Positions 6,200 to 14,713 of a stretch of DNA of 43,200 nucleotides are shown piece after piece. Location of the stretch: positions 1 to 43,200 of the forward strand of contig JAICGN010000027.1 of assembly GCA_025923075.1 (NCBI GenBank). Direction: 5' to 3'. Source of the stretch: Chitinophagaceae bacterium. Its GTDB lineage: Bacteria > Bacteroidota > Bacteroidia > Chitinophagales > Chitinophagaceae. Position 1 is the first letter of the stretch; every line of letters starts with the position of its first letter. The translations under genes were made by a program, and so were the position numbers. Under the pieces are notes generated by a model. That model worked only from the letters and a program-made list of their open reading frames with translations, made no database searches and was not told the DNA's origin.

Positions 6200-9100
6200 A
6201 TGAACCGAAAAAAAATCTCAAGACCATTGTATTATCAATTGAGTCTTGCATTGATCCTTTGTTTTTTTTCCATGGTCTCCTTTAGCCAGGTTAAGATATC
6301 TGGTAAGGTAACAGGCACTGATGGTAAGGGACTTCCTTACATTTCTGTACAGGTAAAAGGTACCGGTTTGGGCAGTTCAACAGACCTGGATGGTACCTAC
6401 AGCTTTTTTGCTGATCTGAAACCAGGTCAATATGTATTGGAGTTTACCGGTATTGGACTTAAGTCAAAAGAACAGGCTCTTCGTGTTGGAAGCGAAACGT
6501 CTTACACTGCCGACATCAGTCTTGCAGAAGATGCTCTTAATCTTGATGAGGTGGTTGTTACCGGCGTTTCGGCGGGAACAACAAGAAAACAACTTGGGAG
6601 TTATGTCAGCACAGTAAAAAGTGACCAGCTAAACAAAGGCGGTTCGCCAAATGTGTTGTCTGCATTACAAGGCAAGACCGCGGGTGCCCAAATTATTCAA
6701 AACAATGGAGATCCTGGCGGTGGCGTATCCGTTCGTCTGCGTGGTATCAGCTCGGTATTATCTTCGTCCGAGCCCCTTTATATTGTTGATGGAGTAATTG
6801 TCAACAATGCAACGAATCGAGTTACGAATACGCAAAACACCTATGATGGAACAAATTTTGTCGGGACAATCGGTCAAAACAGATTGGCGGATATAAACCC
6901 GGCAGATATTGACCGGATTGAAGTGTTGAATGGCGCTGCCGCTGCAGCTATCTATGGTTCAAGAGCCAACTCAGGTGTCGTTCAAATATTTACCAAGAGA
7001 GGAACAAGCGGCGCACCAATTGTGAACTTTTCATCATCGTTTTTAGTTAGCACGCTGCGCAAGAAACTTGAAGTGAACAATGCACCAACAAAATTTGGCG
7101 GGCCTACTGATGGAGTGGGTGCACTTACTCAGGATCTTATTACAACTGTCGGTACTCCGCCTGCATTGCCAACAAATACTACGGCGGTATCACGTTACGA
7201 TTACCAGGATTATATTTTCAGAACTGGCATCGGCACAGATAACAATATATCAGTAAGTGGCGGTACGGATAAAACCAAGTATTATGTTTCGGGTTCTTAC
7301 TTCTTTAACCAGGGAATTGTACAGAATACAGATTTTCGCAGGTATAGCTTCCGGGCTAACATTGATCAAACTCTTAACAGTTGGATTAGCTTTAATCTCG
7401 GGTTGAATTATATCAACAGTACTTCAAACGAAAAACCTGATGGCAATTCATTTTTCTCACCTATGAATTCTGTGACTATCATTGGCAATTTTCATGATCT
7501 GTGGACAAGGGATGCCCTGGGAAATATTAAAGCTGTTGGTGAAAGGGGACGTGTAAATCCCGTATCGGTCATTGAAGATTTCAAACAAAGACAAGAAACA
7601 AACCGTATTATCAGCAGTCTTGGTGTGAAGCTGAGACCAATGAAGGGTTTGACTTTTGATTATACTTTGGGAGTTGACAATTATAGCCAGAATGGCACTA
7701 CTTATATGCCACCGTTTGCATATAACGTGAATACAGCTTTTTTTGGTGGCGCTGCCAGCTTAGATCCCACATTGAATGGTTATGCAAGCACAGGCACTGA
7801 TAATTTTTTTCAAATCAACAATGAGTTGAACGGTACTTACCAGTTTAACATTAATAAAGATGTTGGTTCTACTACACAGGTTGGTTATTCAGTACAGTAT
7901 GAAAAAAATCGCTATGCCTTATTGCAGGGTCGCGGTTTAAGTCCTTTTGTCCAAACAGTAAATGGTGCAAGCACTATTTTACCGGCTGTCGATGACCGTA
8001 GTGAACAATCGATCTCCGGTGCCTACATTCAACAAAACTTTAAGTTCAGAAACCAATTATTCGTTACCGGTGCTGTACGTTTTGATGGTTCTTCCGTTTT
8101 CGGAGAAGATGAACGCAACCAGGTTTATTTCAAAGCAAACGCCAGCTATATTTTATCTGAATCAGGATTTTGGAAAAATATGAGTTGGTGGAATTTCTTA
8201 AAACTAAGAGCAGCTTATGGGGAATCAGGAAATCTTACTGGCATCGGGGCTTACTCAAGATTTAATTCATACACGTCTAATTCATTTCTAAGCAGAACAG
8301 CACTTACTTCAAGTTCGGTGCTGGCAAATGAACACGTAAAACCAGAAAGACAAAAAGAACTTGAAATTGGAACCGATATGTCCTTTTTCAATAATCGCAT
8401 CGGTCTGACATTTAACTGGTATAAGAAACGTGTTGAAGATATGCTGATCAACAGGGTGATCGCTCCAACAAATGGTTTTTCAAGTTTGTTAGACAATTTT
8501 GGTTCATTGGAAAATAAAGGAATCGAAGTTGTATTAAAAGGTACACCGGTAAGTAAAAAAGATTTAAGATGGGATGTAACATTGATTTTTAACCGGAATA
8601 GGAATGAAGTGTTAGAGGTCGGTCCCTCACTCACGCTTATACCTACTACTACAGGTGCCCCTGTTTCTTTATTGGAAGGATATCCTGTTGGAGTATTTTA
8701 CGGAACATTCTTTGCCGTTGATGCCAGTGGCAACCAGGTAAAAAATGCCGCCGGTATTCCTCAATTAGAAAGAGGAACTCAGAATTCGCCGCTTGTCTAC
8801 ACACCACAGCGCGACGCAAATGGATTGCCAACAGGAACGACTTTAAGAAAAGTAATTGGAGATCCCAATCCTGATTATACAGCATCATTAACAAATGAAA
8901 TCAGTTTTAAGAAGTTCAACTTGAGTTTCCAATTTGATGCGGTGCAGGGAGTAGATGTATTTAATGCAGATTTCAGAACAAGACAAGGTGTAGGTAATGG
9001 AAAAGTTGCTGAACAGGAGCATTCAGGTCAACTACCAAGAGGATATATTCTTGGTGTTTACCAGATCGAGGAATGGCGTGTTGATGATGGCTCCTTTGTA

Positions 9101-10638: not shown

Positions 10639-10663
10639 TTTTCGCCGGTTCATATAAGCAGTA

Positions 10664-10694
10664 GGGCTACCCGGGTCGGTAGCCCTTATTTTTT
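10664..10694 (+). terminator. Rho-independent terminator of the SusC/SusD transcript
   Basis: Perfect 8-bp stem GGGCTACC (10664-10671) / GGTAGCCC (10678-10685) with a 6-base loop, followed by TTATTTTTT. It lies 26 bases after the SusD stop and separates this unit from the ECF sigma gene. Confidence 0.9.
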
Positions 10695-10779
10695 GCCGAC
10701 CGGATTGTTATTAAATAGTTTAAAATTGACAATGCAACGTAAAGCAAAAAGCCGTTGTCAGAGCAAGTAAGAAAGGATA

Positions 10780-11343
10780 ATGGATACTCAAAAACTGGTA
10801 AAAGATTGTATCAGGGAAATACCTGCTGCCCAACGGCAGTTATATGATCATTTTGCTGAAACGATGTTGGGTATCTGTTACCGTTATACCAAATCAATGG
10901 ATGATGCCGAAGATGTACTGCAGGACGGATTTGTAAAAGTTTTCAAAAACCTGTATCAATATAAATATGAAGGTGAGCTTGGTGGCTGGATAAGAAGGAT
11001 CATGGTGACCACGGCGCTGAATTACCTGAAAAAGAATTCCCGGTACAATCACGACTTTTCTTTTGACAATGAAAACCTCCACCCGGTGACGAATGATAAC
11101 CCGGAAATAAAAATGACGGGTAAAGAACTGGCTGACCTGATCCGGCAACTGCCAATAGGATACCAAACAATTTTTAACCTTCATGCGGTGGAAGGGTTTA
11201 GCCATGTTGAAATTGGAAAAATGCTCGGAATCAATGAAGGTACTTCGAGATCGCAGTATGCAAGAGCAAGAGCATTGTTGATCAGCTGGATAAAAAAAAA
11301 CGATGAAGTAAATATTAAAACTGGTGCATATGCCGGAAAATGA
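10780..11343 (+). CDS. ECF-type RNA polymerase sigma factor
   Basis: 187 residues. Region 2 spans about 20-90, with MLGICYRYTKSMDDAEDVLQ, DGFVKVFKNLYQYKYEG and GGWIRRIMVTTALNYLK. Region 4 spans about 125-178, with LIRQLPIGYQTIFNLHAVEG, then FSHVEIGKMLGINEGTSRSQ. An AAGAAAGG sits just before the ATG. The last 20 bases overlap the next gene, so translation is probably coupled. ECF factors direct polymerase to a small regulon and are held by a membrane anti-sigma protein; the overlapping gene product has the right topology for that role. The regulon is unknown. Confidence 0.92.
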   Translation: MDTQKLVKDCIREIPAAQRQLYDHFAETMLGICYRYTKSMDDAEDVLQDGFVKVFKNLYQYKYEGELGGWIRRIMVTTALNYLKKNSRYNHDFSFDNENLHPVTNDNPEIKMTGKELADLIRQLPIGYQTIFNLHAVEGFSHVEIGKMLGINEGTSRSQYARARALLISWIKKNDEVNIKTGAYAGK

Positions 11344-12829
11344 ATTTGAGAAAAAAGTTTCTTCCGAAATGCAGGGGCTGAAGTTCAAGCCTTCAGACAA
11401 AGTTTGGCTGCAAGTTGAAGAGAGAATACGCAGGAAAAAGAAAAGAAAAGTCTTTGTTATTATTTTCTTTTTGGCCGGCCTGGCATTGCTGGGCTATTGG
11501 CAACGCGATAATTTGTTTGGAGAAATGAAAAATGATATTGTAAAAACTGAGACACAAGACGAAGAGAACTCCATAACTACAGGGGACCCGACGAGTTCTT
11601 CAGCAACCAATCAAAATATTGAAACAATAAACCTGGATAAAATAAAAAATCCAATTGATAAAACTGCTACCAAGGAAGTTGTAGTTGACAAACCAGCTGT
11701 TGAGAAAAAGAATACAGTTATTTCAAAACCTGAAATTTATAGCACAAAGAATAAGACTAAGAATGAAACAAGAAATAAACAAGTAGCCGGAAAAACTAAA
11801 ATAATAGAAGAATCTCAAGGGCCTGGTGATGTTGTATCGGCCGCACAACAAAAACAAAATCTCGTTACTGATAATAACAAAACCAACGATTCTGTTGGGT
11901 TAAAAGACAACGAACTATTAATACAGGAGGAAATCAATCAAGGAGACACAACACCTGTCGAAAACAGAATTGATTCCAATTATACTGAAGTAATTAAACA
12001 GAAAAAAGACAGTATAGAAACCAGGGATACAGTTTTGAAAATAAAGGCCAAAGATTCAGCGGCTGCAATCGTTCAAAAAAATCTTCCGGACAAAAAATGG
12101 AAATGGGGTTTACATATTACACCGGGTATTTCATCGTTAAGCGGTCATGGTCTTTCCTTTGGTTCGCAAACCCTCGCGGATGCATTCAATTATCAGAGTC
12201 CTGTAACCGGAGGTGCTACCGGTGCACCTCGTGTCATACAAAAACCTTCTGAGCCCAGATCGGGATTTGCTTTCCAGGTAGGGGGCGCTGCGCACAGGCA
12301 ATTATCATCCCGTGCCGGTTTTTCATTGGGTTTGCAGTATGGTTATTATAGCAATCATATTGGAATTGGAAACAAGAGAAACGTAGCTGGCCGCTTTAAT
12401 CAATCCGGCAATATGAGTAATGACAACTATGTGTATAATGCCGGCGGTGATACTGTCAAATACACCAATCAGTATCATTTTATTGAACTACCGGTTAATT
12501 TTCAATGGCAACTAAATAAAAACAAAGCAAAGCCATTTACATGGAGCATAGGGCTTACCGTTGGGCAGCTGGTCGCAAGTAATGCGCTGATGTACGACAC
12601 TGCTTTCGGTGGTATTTATTATGAAAATCAGAACCTGCTCAATAGAACACAGTTCGGTCTATCAACCGGCTTTTCGTGGACGATAGCGAATACCAGCCAG
12701 GCACAATGGAACATCGGTCCTGAAGCAAACATGCATTTGAACAAGTTATTTGATAGTCCTTTTGAAAATAAACGATACTTATTCTTTGTTGGCTTACGAA
12801 CTGCGGTTCTTTTTAATCAAAAGAAATAA
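11324..12829 (+). CDS. Putative anti-sigma-like protein: cytoplasmic tail, one inner-membrane helix, charged linker, beta-barrel-like C-terminus
   Basis: 501 residues. Residues 1-42 are charged and cytoplasmic by the positive-inside rule (EERIRRKKKRK just before the helix). Residues 43-59 are a single hydrophobic helix. Residues 65-250 are a low-complexity K/E/N/T-rich linker. From about 255 (KKWKWGLHITPGISSLSGHG) the protein resembles an outer-membrane beta-barrel domain of the OmpA/PorT-like type and ends with FFVGLRTAVLFNQKK. There is no cleavable signal peptide. The gene overlaps the sigma gene by 20 bases. An in-frame ATG two codons downstream is an equally good start. The anti-sigma role is inferred from overlap and topology. 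A helix that stays in the inner membrane plus a barrel in the outer membrane would make it span the envelope; the C-terminal part may instead be a soluble beta domain. Confidence 0.65.
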   Translation: MHMPENEFEKKVSSEMQGLKFKPSDKVWLQVEERIRRKKKRKVFVIIFFLAGLALLGYWQRDNLFGEMKNDIVKTETQDEENSITTGDPTSSSATNQNIETINLDKIKNPIDKTATKEVVVDKPAVEKKNTVISKPEIYSTKNKTKNETRNKQVAGKTKIIEESQGPGDVVSAAQQKQNLVTDNNKTNDSVGLKDNELLIQEEINQGDTTPVENRIDSNYTEVIKQKKDSIETRDTVLKIKAKDSAAAIVQKNLPDKKWKWGLHITPGISSLSGHGLSFGSQTLADAFNYQSPVTGGATGAPRVIQKPSEPRSGFAFQVGGAAHRQLSSRAGFSLGLQYGYYSNHIGIGNKRNVAGRFNQSGNMSNDNYVYNAGGDTVKYTNQYHFIELPVNFQWQLNKNKAKPFTWSIGLTVGQLVASNALMYDTAFGGIYYENQNLLNRTQFGLSTGFSWTIANTSQAQWNIGPEANMHLNKLFDSPFENKRYLFFVGLRTAVLFNQKK

Positions 12830-12875: not shown

Positions 12876-14126
12876 ATGAGAAAAATAATTCTGATGCCGC
12901 TGCTAGTTTTTGCATTGCAATCCTGCCTGAAGGATAATGTAACAAAAACCTATTCAATCTTCGAACCCATTTACAAAAGCAAAACGGAAGTACTTTCTGA
13001 AATAAAAAGCAGTACACCGGTTTCCATATCCAATCCCGGCAAAATTTATATGTATGGAAATTATATTTTTCTGAATGAAGTAAATAAAGGAGTGCATATA
13101 ATTGATAACAGTAATCCTGCGAATCCTTCAATAAAAGCATTCATTAATATTCCGGGAAATGTAGATATAGCAGTGAAGGGTTCTACTTTGTATGCCGACC
13201 TGTTTACCGATCTGGTCGTTGTCGATATCAGTAATCCATTAGATGCAGTGTTGAAAAAAATGATCCCAAAGATCTTCCCTGAAAGAGTATATGCAGCAGG
13301 ATTCGTTGCAGACTCATCCAAAGTAATTGTTGGATGGACAGAAAAGAAAATTAAGGAATCTGTCGATGGACCGCCGCCGGCAGGTGGTGGATGGATAAGA
13401 GGAGATCGCTTTCTGTTAATGAGTGCTGCTCAATCCGGTACCGCTGGTAGTAGTGCTGCGCCAGCAGTAACAGGAATCGCAGGTTCTATGTCACGATTCA
13501 GTATTGTAAACGATTATTTATATGCAGTAAATAATTCAAGTATAAAAGTATTCGATATCTCCGCCGTGAGCGATCCTCAACTGAAGAATACGGTTGGGGT
13601 TGGCTGGAATATTGAGACCATTTATCCTTTTAAAAACAAACTATTCCTGGGTTCATCAAACGGCATGTTCATTTTTGATATTACTAACCCGGTGACTCCG
13701 GCTCGCGAAGGCTCTTTATCACATTTCCGGGCATGCGATCCGGTCGTGGCTGATGATGATTATGCTTTTGTTACGCTTCGTGCCGGCACATTTTGCCAGG
13801 GCACCAATAATCAGCTTGATGTGGTCAACGTTCAAAACGTGCAGTCTCCGTGGCTGGTGAAAACTTATGGACTTACAAATCCGCATGGATTGGCGAAAGA
13901 TGGCGACTTGCTGTTTGTCTGCGATGGCAGCGATGGATTAAAAATATACAACAAATCGAATGTCTTTAGCCTGCAATTGCTTAGCCATATAAAAAATATT
14001 GAAACCTATGATGTGATAGCCTGGAATAATAGACTATTAGTAGTGGCAAAAGGCGGTTTGTATCAGTATAACTATTCAAATCCTTCAAGCCTTTCCTTGC
14101 TCAGCAAATTGAAAGTAAATAATTAA
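12876..14126 (+). CDS. LVIVD-repeat surface lipoprotein
   Basis: 416 residues from the ATG at 12876 (the frame extends upstream, but this ATG starts a proper lipoprotein signal: MRKIILMPLLVFALQSC, Cys 17). The mature protein has repeated blades such as YIFLNEVNKGVHIIDNSNP, LYADLFTDLVVVDISNP, LYAVNNSSIKVFDIS and LFLGSSNGMFIFDITNP, typical of LVIVD-repeat beta-propellers. Seven-bladed folds of this kind bind proteins or ligands at the surface; no enzyme residues are evident. It follows the membrane protein gene by 46 bases and precedes the next gene by 2 bases, so it probably belongs to the sigma-factor operon. Confidence 0.8.
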   Translation: MRKIILMPLLVFALQSCLKDNVTKTYSIFEPIYKSKTEVLSEIKSSTPVSISNPGKIYMYGNYIFLNEVNKGVHIIDNSNPANPSIKAFINIPGNVDIAVKGSTLYADLFTDLVVVDISNPLDAVLKKMIPKIFPERVYAAGFVADSSKVIVGWTEKKIKESVDGPPPAGGGWIRGDRFLLMSAAQSGTAGSSAAPAVTGIAGSMSRFSIVNDYLYAVNNSSIKVFDISAVSDPQLKNTVGVGWNIETIYPFKNKLFLGSSNGMFIFDITNPVTPAREGSLSHFRACDPVVADDDYAFVTLRAGTFCQGTNNQLDVVNVQNVQSPWLVKTYGLTNPHGLAKDGDLLFVCDGSDGLKIYNKSNVFSLQLLSHIKNIETYDVIAWNNRLLVVAKGGLYQYNYSNPSSLSLLSKLKVNN

Positions 14127-14128
14127 TT

Positions 14129-14713
14129 ATGAAAAGACCTTTTCTCATTTTGCTGTTGTTCCTGATAATTAAAAACGAAATCACAGCACAGGAAACTAAA
14201 AAAGAAAGGAAATTTTTTAGCTCGCAAATTTCAACCGGGGTTGTGGAAGGGGAGCAGGGTACAAGTTTCCATATCGAAGTAGTAAACGGTATCCGTTATA
14301 AAACCTGGTTTGCCGGCATCGGTACTGGACTTGATTATTATTATTTTCGTAGCATACCTGTTTATCTTTCAGGAATAAAATATCTTTCGAAGCGCAATCA
14401 TAGCTTTTTTATCCAGGGCGATGCAGGAATGAACTTTGCATGGGTTGAAGACAGGATAAATGCCTGGAATGAAGTTAGCCATGAATATAAACCCGGTATG
14501 TATTGGAACGGCATGTTAGGTTTTGCCACGGGTCTTGACAGAAAAAATTCATTTTCGTTTGGAATGGGCTATTCTTATAAAAATTTAAAGGAAGTGAGAG
14601 AGATGACAGTAATGTGTTTTAATCCTCCATGTGAAAACACTTTTGAAACTTATAAGTATAATTTAAAAAGATTGACGTTGAGACTTGGCTGGCATTTCAA
14701 TTATTCCCGTTAG
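14129..14713 (+). CDS. Small outer-membrane beta-barrel protein
   Basis: 194 residues with a signal peptide ending near ITAQ (residue 21). The rest alternates aromatic and polar residues in short strands ([40 protein letters not shown]), as in eight-stranded barrels; the final residues are aromatic but not a textbook Phe terminus. It starts 2 bases after the LVIVD gene and is probably translated with it. Its 3' end overlaps the 3' end of queG on the other strand by 17 bases. No specific family recognised. Confidence 0.65.

Follow-up and report, generated by a model that had tools for sequence, protein, structure and literature searches.

The overlapping genes at positions 10780..12829 of the window (the whole stretch of 43,200 nt analysed here) very probably form a Dma/Reo-type switch of sigma and anti-sigma factor, which would drive surface remodelling from promoters of the form RTGCAACG-N15-TTGTCAR. 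Both the outer-membrane barrel of the anti-sigma factor and its topology are predicted.

Gene Structure of the Sigma Factor and Its Overlapping Partner

The first gene (10780..11343, plus strand) encodes an ECF sigma factor of 187 amino acids that shares 63–74% identity with 15 relatives. Pfam analysis revealed both Sigma70_r2 (4e-13) and r4_2 (3e-15) in this protein, and among the 25 listed of 90 matched NCBIfam families, the general sigma70-ECF model was the only one above its cut-off. The second gene (11330..12829, plus strand) overlaps the first by 14 nt and encodes a predicted Dma/Reo-type anti-sigma factor of 499 amino acids. Its open reading frame, which ends at 12829, has two alternative starts, GTG 11324 and ATG 11330. 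We judged ATG 11330 to be the better one by comparison of relatives, because the partner starts 11–20 nt inside the sigma gene in all 77 relatives found by script, and exactly 14 nt inside it in 53 of them. With this start, the residue numbers in an earlier note on this DNA are too high by 2.

The earlier note had described an ECF sigma factor gene overlapping a single partner with a basic tail, one helix, a linker rich in K, E, N and T, and a barrel-like C-terminus. Both open reading frames are present, Pfam found the sigma regions, and all four parts of the partner were recovered with the numbering shifted by 2: a tail with the basic stretch RRKKKRK, one helix at about residues 41–57, a linker rich in K, E, N, T and S, and the C-terminal part. 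The sole Pfam match of the partner at E ≤1 was OMP_b-brl_2 (residues 307–462, E 2.4e-7, above the family cut-off). As no FecR domain was detected by Pfam at E up to 1, a FecR-type anti-sigma identity was dropped.

Between susC/susD-like genes and the sigma gene lies an intrinsic-terminator-like hairpin (10663..10686, plus strand) with a 9-pair stem and a T-rich tail; it is a consensus match, and 7 such hairpins were found in the region compared with 3.6 expected. Considering this intervening hairpin and the presence of susC/susD relatives upstream of sigma in only 11 of 70 loci having enough upstream sequence, a functional link between the pair and susC/susD was rejected.

Predicted Structure of the Partner

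The partner may be divided into four parts, all on the plus strand: a cytoplasmic tail with a basic end that is a putative sigma-binding domain (residues 1–40, 11330..11449), a single transmembrane helix (residues 41–63, 11450..11518), a disordered linker (residues 64–245, 11519..12064) and a predicted 8-stranded outer-membrane barrel (residues 250–499, 12077..12826). The AlphaFold2 model, built with 75 aligned sequences, has a mean pLDDT of 70.9 and a pTM of 0.56. It contains helices at 5–15 and 23–63, the latter in agreement with hydropathy, which also revealed a single transmembrane helix in relatives. Residues 64–245 are without secondary structure (block pLDDT 42–51 up to residue 240), and eight long strands lie within 257–495, most of the strand-bearing blocks having pLDDT >90.

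No solved relative was found by sequence at E 0.1 with a profile of the whole partner. By fold, Foldseek matched the barrel to OmpA, NspA and OmpW. A second look at these matches with VIA-align, using residues 253–499, gave a Z of 16.6 for OmpA (rmsd 3.2 over 167), 15.9 for NspA (rmsd 3.6 over 155) and 14.3 for OmpW (rmsd 2.9 over 171). A soluble periplasmic C-terminal domain, the fold that the earlier note had set against its own proposal, was therefore rejected at the level of prediction, and the proposal itself, a single protein running from cytoplasm to outer membrane, gains support from the same model and fold matches.

Multiple alignment (75 rows) showed that mean column conservation is highest in the tail (0.60), where F6, P21 and W26 are invariant, intermediate in the barrel strands (0.40–0.51) and lowest in the linker (0.17). 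Linker length, estimated as the stretch from the end of the helix to the start of the final 230 residues, varies from roughly 147 to 296 amino acids among complete relatives. With the tether being periplasmic, loops 1–4 of the barrel would be external. Loop 3 (residues 418–439) has a conservation of 0.52, on a par with the strands, and the values for loops 1, 2 and 4 are 0.24, 0.30 and 0.37.

Conservation of the Pair

For the sigma protein, the best 80 of 223 relatives in named genomes were kept, the nearest being from Bacteroidetes (93%), Chitinophagaceae (87%) and Sphingobacteriales (87%), followed by Niastella and other Chitinophagaceae, which points to a Bacteroidota genome of the Chitinophagaceae type. 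The same partner is located 3' of sigma in 78 of these 80 relatives, 77 of which were recognised by script from the same tail and helix and one (L141, reported by the script as having no next gene) by eye. In the other two (L093 and L105), the contig ends 86 and 14 nt past sigma. Thus, the gene pairing is not due to chance. Three of the 77 partners are truncated ahead of the barrel, so that 74 are complete.

Within the family, matches to P0002 were detected in 59 of 117 genomes, including the window's own. Partner identity is 21–30% across 26 relatives, rising to 54, 47 and 36% for the closest rows of the larger set. Judged by these identities, a steady switch (sigma, 63–74%) is paired with a fast-changing putative sensor (partner, 21–30%). 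A phylum-wide search with the partner profile gave matches in 62 of 247 genomes, and an ECF sigma gene is directly upstream in 26 of the 28 loci fetched from these matches (L280–L307; L301 and L303 are without one). The earlier note regarded the design as unusual; instead, it is not rare, and the window's own genome alone has four matches to the family profile (C27, C44, C124 and C2).

The loci on C44, C124 and C2 (L036, L003 and L048) encode three further Dma-type proteins of full length, paired with paralogous sigma genes; their Pfam matches to the barrel family are below the cut-off. Two short partners of sigma genes are also present in this genome, of 196 and 278 amino acids (C12, L002:1306-1893; C50, L035:608-1441). 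In both, a single helix and a comparable tail motif are found with no recognised barrel, and in the C50 partner a motif of the P-x-x-x-W type was seen twice by eye.

A Predicted Promoter Motif Upstream of the Pair and of an LVIVD Lipoprotein Unit

The predicted promoter motif is RTGCAACG-N15-TTGTCAR, with the exact core GCAACG-N16-TGTCA. Only two exact core matches are present in the window, both on the plus strand. The first, predicted promoter P1 of the sigma-dma operon (10733..10761, TGCAACG-N16-TGTCAG), is 18 nt before the sigma start, and the second, predicted promoter P2 (12830..12858, TGCAACG-N16-TGTCAA), directly follows the dma stop codon and is 17 nt before the start of an LVIVD gene.

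The exact core was found upstream of sigma in 79 of the 80 loci (best 80 of 223), the one miss (L081) being a near-match, and the leading T and trailing purine are also present in 64 of the 80. With spacing free by 1, all 80 loci match ≥10 of 12 letters, compared with about 0.5 in 80 for shuffles, a crude control that moves non-overlapping dinucleotides. In the motif logo (79 sequences), the full conservation of GCAACG is circular, as this was the selection criterion.

The LVIVD-repeat lipoprotein downstream of P2 (12876..14126, plus strand, 416 amino acids; Pfam LVIVD, 6e-12) has a lipobox-like LQSC followed by LKD, as seen by eye. Next to it is a gene for a predicted small outer-membrane barrel protein of 194 amino acids (14129..14713, plus strand), with an N-terminal hydrophobic helix resembling a signal peptide. 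Its AlphaFold2 model (mean pLDDT 90.8) has strands from residue 29 onward and matches OmpW and NspA at Foldseek E of about 1e-5.

The LVIVD gene is directly 3' of dma in 40 of the 74 relatives with complete dma. The motif, one mismatch in 11 being allowed, occurs in the dma-LVIVD gap in 38 of these 40 loci (the sites in L065, L077, L115 and L117 included; absent in L091 and L123). The LVIVD gene is not next in the other 34 loci, one of which (L130) was left out as it ends at the dma stop; the motif was found in the gap after dma in none of the remaining 33. These counts suggest that the motif is tied to the target gene rather than to the gap.

Several other features of this unit were observed. 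In L134, the LVIVD motif (7192-7218) is 200 nt after the anti-sigma gene and 19 nt before a start codon at 7238, a better start for LVIVD than that given by the script. The small barrel gene overlaps a convergent minus-strand gene, presumably queG, by 17 nt at the 3' ends (14697-14713). At the beginning of the LVIVD gene in the window (12876-12960) and in many LVIVD relatives, the sequence at the lipobox cysteine reads C-x-K-D/E. This pattern resembles the surface-export signal reported for Bacteroidota lipoproteins.

Genome-Wide Sites and Predicted Regulon

Exact motif sites numbered 110 in 35 genomes having this sigma factor, compared with 9 for the reversed pattern. The 13-letter pattern gave 29, 44 and 37 sites in three batches of 12, 12 and 11 genomes, and its reversal 3, 4 and 2. 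Twelve genomes of the family that lack the pair (no P0002 match) contain sigma hits at E 1e-20 or better that are only 30–44% identical; these genomes have 3 sites versus 2 reversed, and no lipoprotein was found within 200 nt downstream of the 3 sites. In 12 genomes of the same class with diverged pairs, 2 sites versus 0 reversed were detected. This number is near chance, so we rejected the idea that other Dma-bearing genomes of the class share the motif, which appears to belong to this branch.

After an identical repeat stretch (L213) and the sigma promoter site of G142 were left out, 108 of the 110 sites were classified by target: 26 sigma, 12 LVIVD, 45 other lipoprotein, 3 sugar transferase, 15 other and 7 none. 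Lipoproteins, including LVIVD, thus account for 57 of the 108 sites, the 45 other ones being assigned by a strict lipobox rule; the class of 15 others holds at least 4 proteins that look like lipoproteins by eye (L228, L278, L255 and L268) and were not moved. For 22 of the 108 sites, no kind of target could be named. In the sigma, LVIVD and other lipoprotein classes, a start codon is located 13–23 nt past the motif in 59 of 83 sites. When the sigma and LVIVD classes are excluded, 45 of 70 targets are lipoproteins, versus 93 of 823 (11%) background ORFs (Fisher p 1e-22); the enrichment is approximate, as the background consists of ORFs of at least 150 amino acids and many targets are shorter.

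Some target families were found repeatedly: LVIVD in 11 genomes, a lipocalin-like family in 10, another in 5, and one in 4 genomes including the window's own (C86, L147). The term lipocalin-like is our own description; Pfam analysis of 7 lipoprotein targets, two of them from this group, gave no match. Two LVIVD genes (L203 and L247) keep the motif although they lie on other contigs than sigma; the pairs of these two genomes (L081 and L120) do not have LVIVD as their neighbour. In three genomes, a sugar transferase gene begins 119–142 nt after the motif, and a glycosyltransferase gene follows it in one further genome (L192). Bac_transf was detected by Pfam in L171 and L146, the two sugar transferases scanned.

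The window's own genome has 4 exact-core sites outside the window, and a plausible target was identified for only 2 of them (C86 and C77). On C77 (L146), the core, which is without the leading T of the 13-letter pattern, lies 144 nt before the Bac_transf sugar transferase gene. This spacing is akin to that in the three genomes and unlike the 13–23 nt that is usual for lipoprotein targets. The site on C38 is antisense and inside a gene. The site on C166 (L148), after ruvB, has the exact core with no clear gene downstream on its strand; it could be a chance match or mark a small unannotated gene or RNA. A search of this genome allowing one mismatch was discarded as noisy (21 sites versus 11 reversed).

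Neither the motif nor a lipoprotein regulon of Chitinophagaceae was found in print by a literature search that covered few subscription papers. What appears to be new here is the sharply defined predicted promoter and lipoprotein-rich predicted regulon of one branch.

Relationship to Known Systems

In FecR/FecI systems with a TonB-dependent receptor, an outer-membrane signal reaches an ECF sigma factor, as is proposed here, but the anti-sigma factor and the outer-membrane receptor are separate proteins; the partner here also differs in having no FecR match. The earlier note assumed that the known systems of this phylum use only such separate proteins, which does not hold: three papers describe Dma1, Dma2, Dma3 and Reo as fused (PMC13088901, PMC13114119, PMC9308784). 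The fused design is real, but has already been described from gut Bacteroides.

The descriptions of EcfO-Reo, from Phocaeicola vulgatus (M0N98_03761-03760) and Bacteroides fragilis, give the same order as here, an ECF sigma gene followed by that of a periplasm-crossing anti-sigma factor with a predicted outer-membrane barrel (PMC9308784, PMC13114119); Reo is described as spanning all compartments from the cytoplasm to the surface (PMC13114119). Three surface lipoproteins, all NigD, are driven by EcfO, a glycosyltransferase from the LPS glycan region is reported among its outputs (PMC9308784, PMC13114119), and O-antigens are longer in strains whose anti-sigma factor is impaired (PMC9308784). 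By comparison, the targets predicted here comprise the LVIVD protein, lipocalin-like proteins and further lipoproteins, to which a sugar transferase is added in some genomes. The likeness to Reo is a likeness to its published description.

Similarly, the literature on Das1-Dma1 and Das2-Dma2 of Bacteroides thetaiotaomicron reports the same anti-sigma domain, transmembrane helix, disordered tether and barrel, with an adjacent sigma gene, and ties these pairs to vesiculation and Dma2 to glycan use (PMC13088901). The comparison here is one of anatomy. The operon partner of Dma2 is given there as BT_1557, with function unassigned, and Dma3 works without a separate sigma gene, indicating that the Dma family is not uniform (PMC13088901).

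Alternative Explanations and Proposed Mechanism

As the Pfam match of the partner is to a general outer-membrane barrel family, one might take it for an ordinary outer-membrane protein with a cleaved signal peptide, merely co-transcribed with sigma and having no anti-sigma function. We consider this extremely unlikely, since conservation peaks on the cytoplasmic side of the helix, where three residues are invariant in 75 sequences, a pattern that a signal peptide would not be expected to show. Moreover, the short partners of other sigma factors (C12 and C50), which have no recognised barrel, carry a comparable tail (P-x-x-x-V/A-W, by eye), and Dma and Reo provide a precedent. It is also quite improbable that a different ECF sigma factor reads the motif and that the pair is merely one of its targets. 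The pairing of motif and sigma is predicted, and sigma region 4 is matched 33 times in the genome (30 of these loci were fetched and 28 looked at); however, sites are numerous only in the 35 genomes with this sigma factor and near chance in the 12 family genomes with more distant ones, and in 26 genomes a single sigma gene lies directly behind an exact motif, its first residues being those of this ortholog.

The nature of the signal is a separate matter. Instead of stress of the outer membrane or of barrel assembly, the barrel might sense a ligand or partner that it binds at the cell surface (the LVIVD lipoprotein or a glycan, for instance), which we regard as possible but somewhat doubtful. 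This would fit the strand-like conservation of the third external loop, and the authors of the Dma2 work propose that it senses glycans (PMC13088901). However, loop 3 has a conservation of 0.54 in 35 rows without LVIVD next, a group in which the window's own row was counted, and 0.57 in 40 rows with it; as the two values are nearly equal, the LVIVD lipoprotein is unlikely to be the ligand of this loop and was rejected as such. Also against a surface ligand, the toxins BcpT and Bd-A act as inducers of EcfO-Reo (PMC13114119). Bacteroidetocin A is reported to bind and inhibit BamA. We take Bd-A to be bacteroidetocin A.

For a Dma/Reo-type switch, the following mechanism may be proposed. The 40-residue cytoplasmic tail would hold sigma until the barrel or the surrounding outer membrane is disturbed, when the tether would relay the change to the inner membrane and sigma would be freed, by proteolysis or conformational change. 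Free sigma would then start transcription at RTGCAACG-N15-TTGTCAR promoters: that of its own operon, providing autoregulation with a built-in shut-off, those of the unit of LVIVD lipoprotein and small barrel and of further lipoproteins and, in some genomes, that of a sugar transferase initiating surface polysaccharide. The output would be a remodelled cell surface. We infer that the cell thereby remodels its surface in response to outer-membrane stress, in parallel with EcfO-Reo and its NigD lipoproteins.

A more tentative idea, which we hold to be possible but somewhat doubtful, is that the barrel of the anti-sigma factor is its own sensor, a client of outer-membrane assembly whose failure to fold or to stay folded would free sigma and so renew the surface lipoprotein coat and polysaccharide initiation; one logic might then apply across Bacteroidota, with lipoproteins differing by family.

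Dma and Reo proteins have been described in gut Bacteroides and Phocaeicola, and their targets are known there from mutants and toxin treatment. The present branch, being well conserved, yields a sharp motif and a predicted target list across many genomes, including Niastella and Pinibacter. Two questions thereby become testable: what long anti-sigma factors sense, and whether the renewal of surface lipoproteins and glycans may be their common output.
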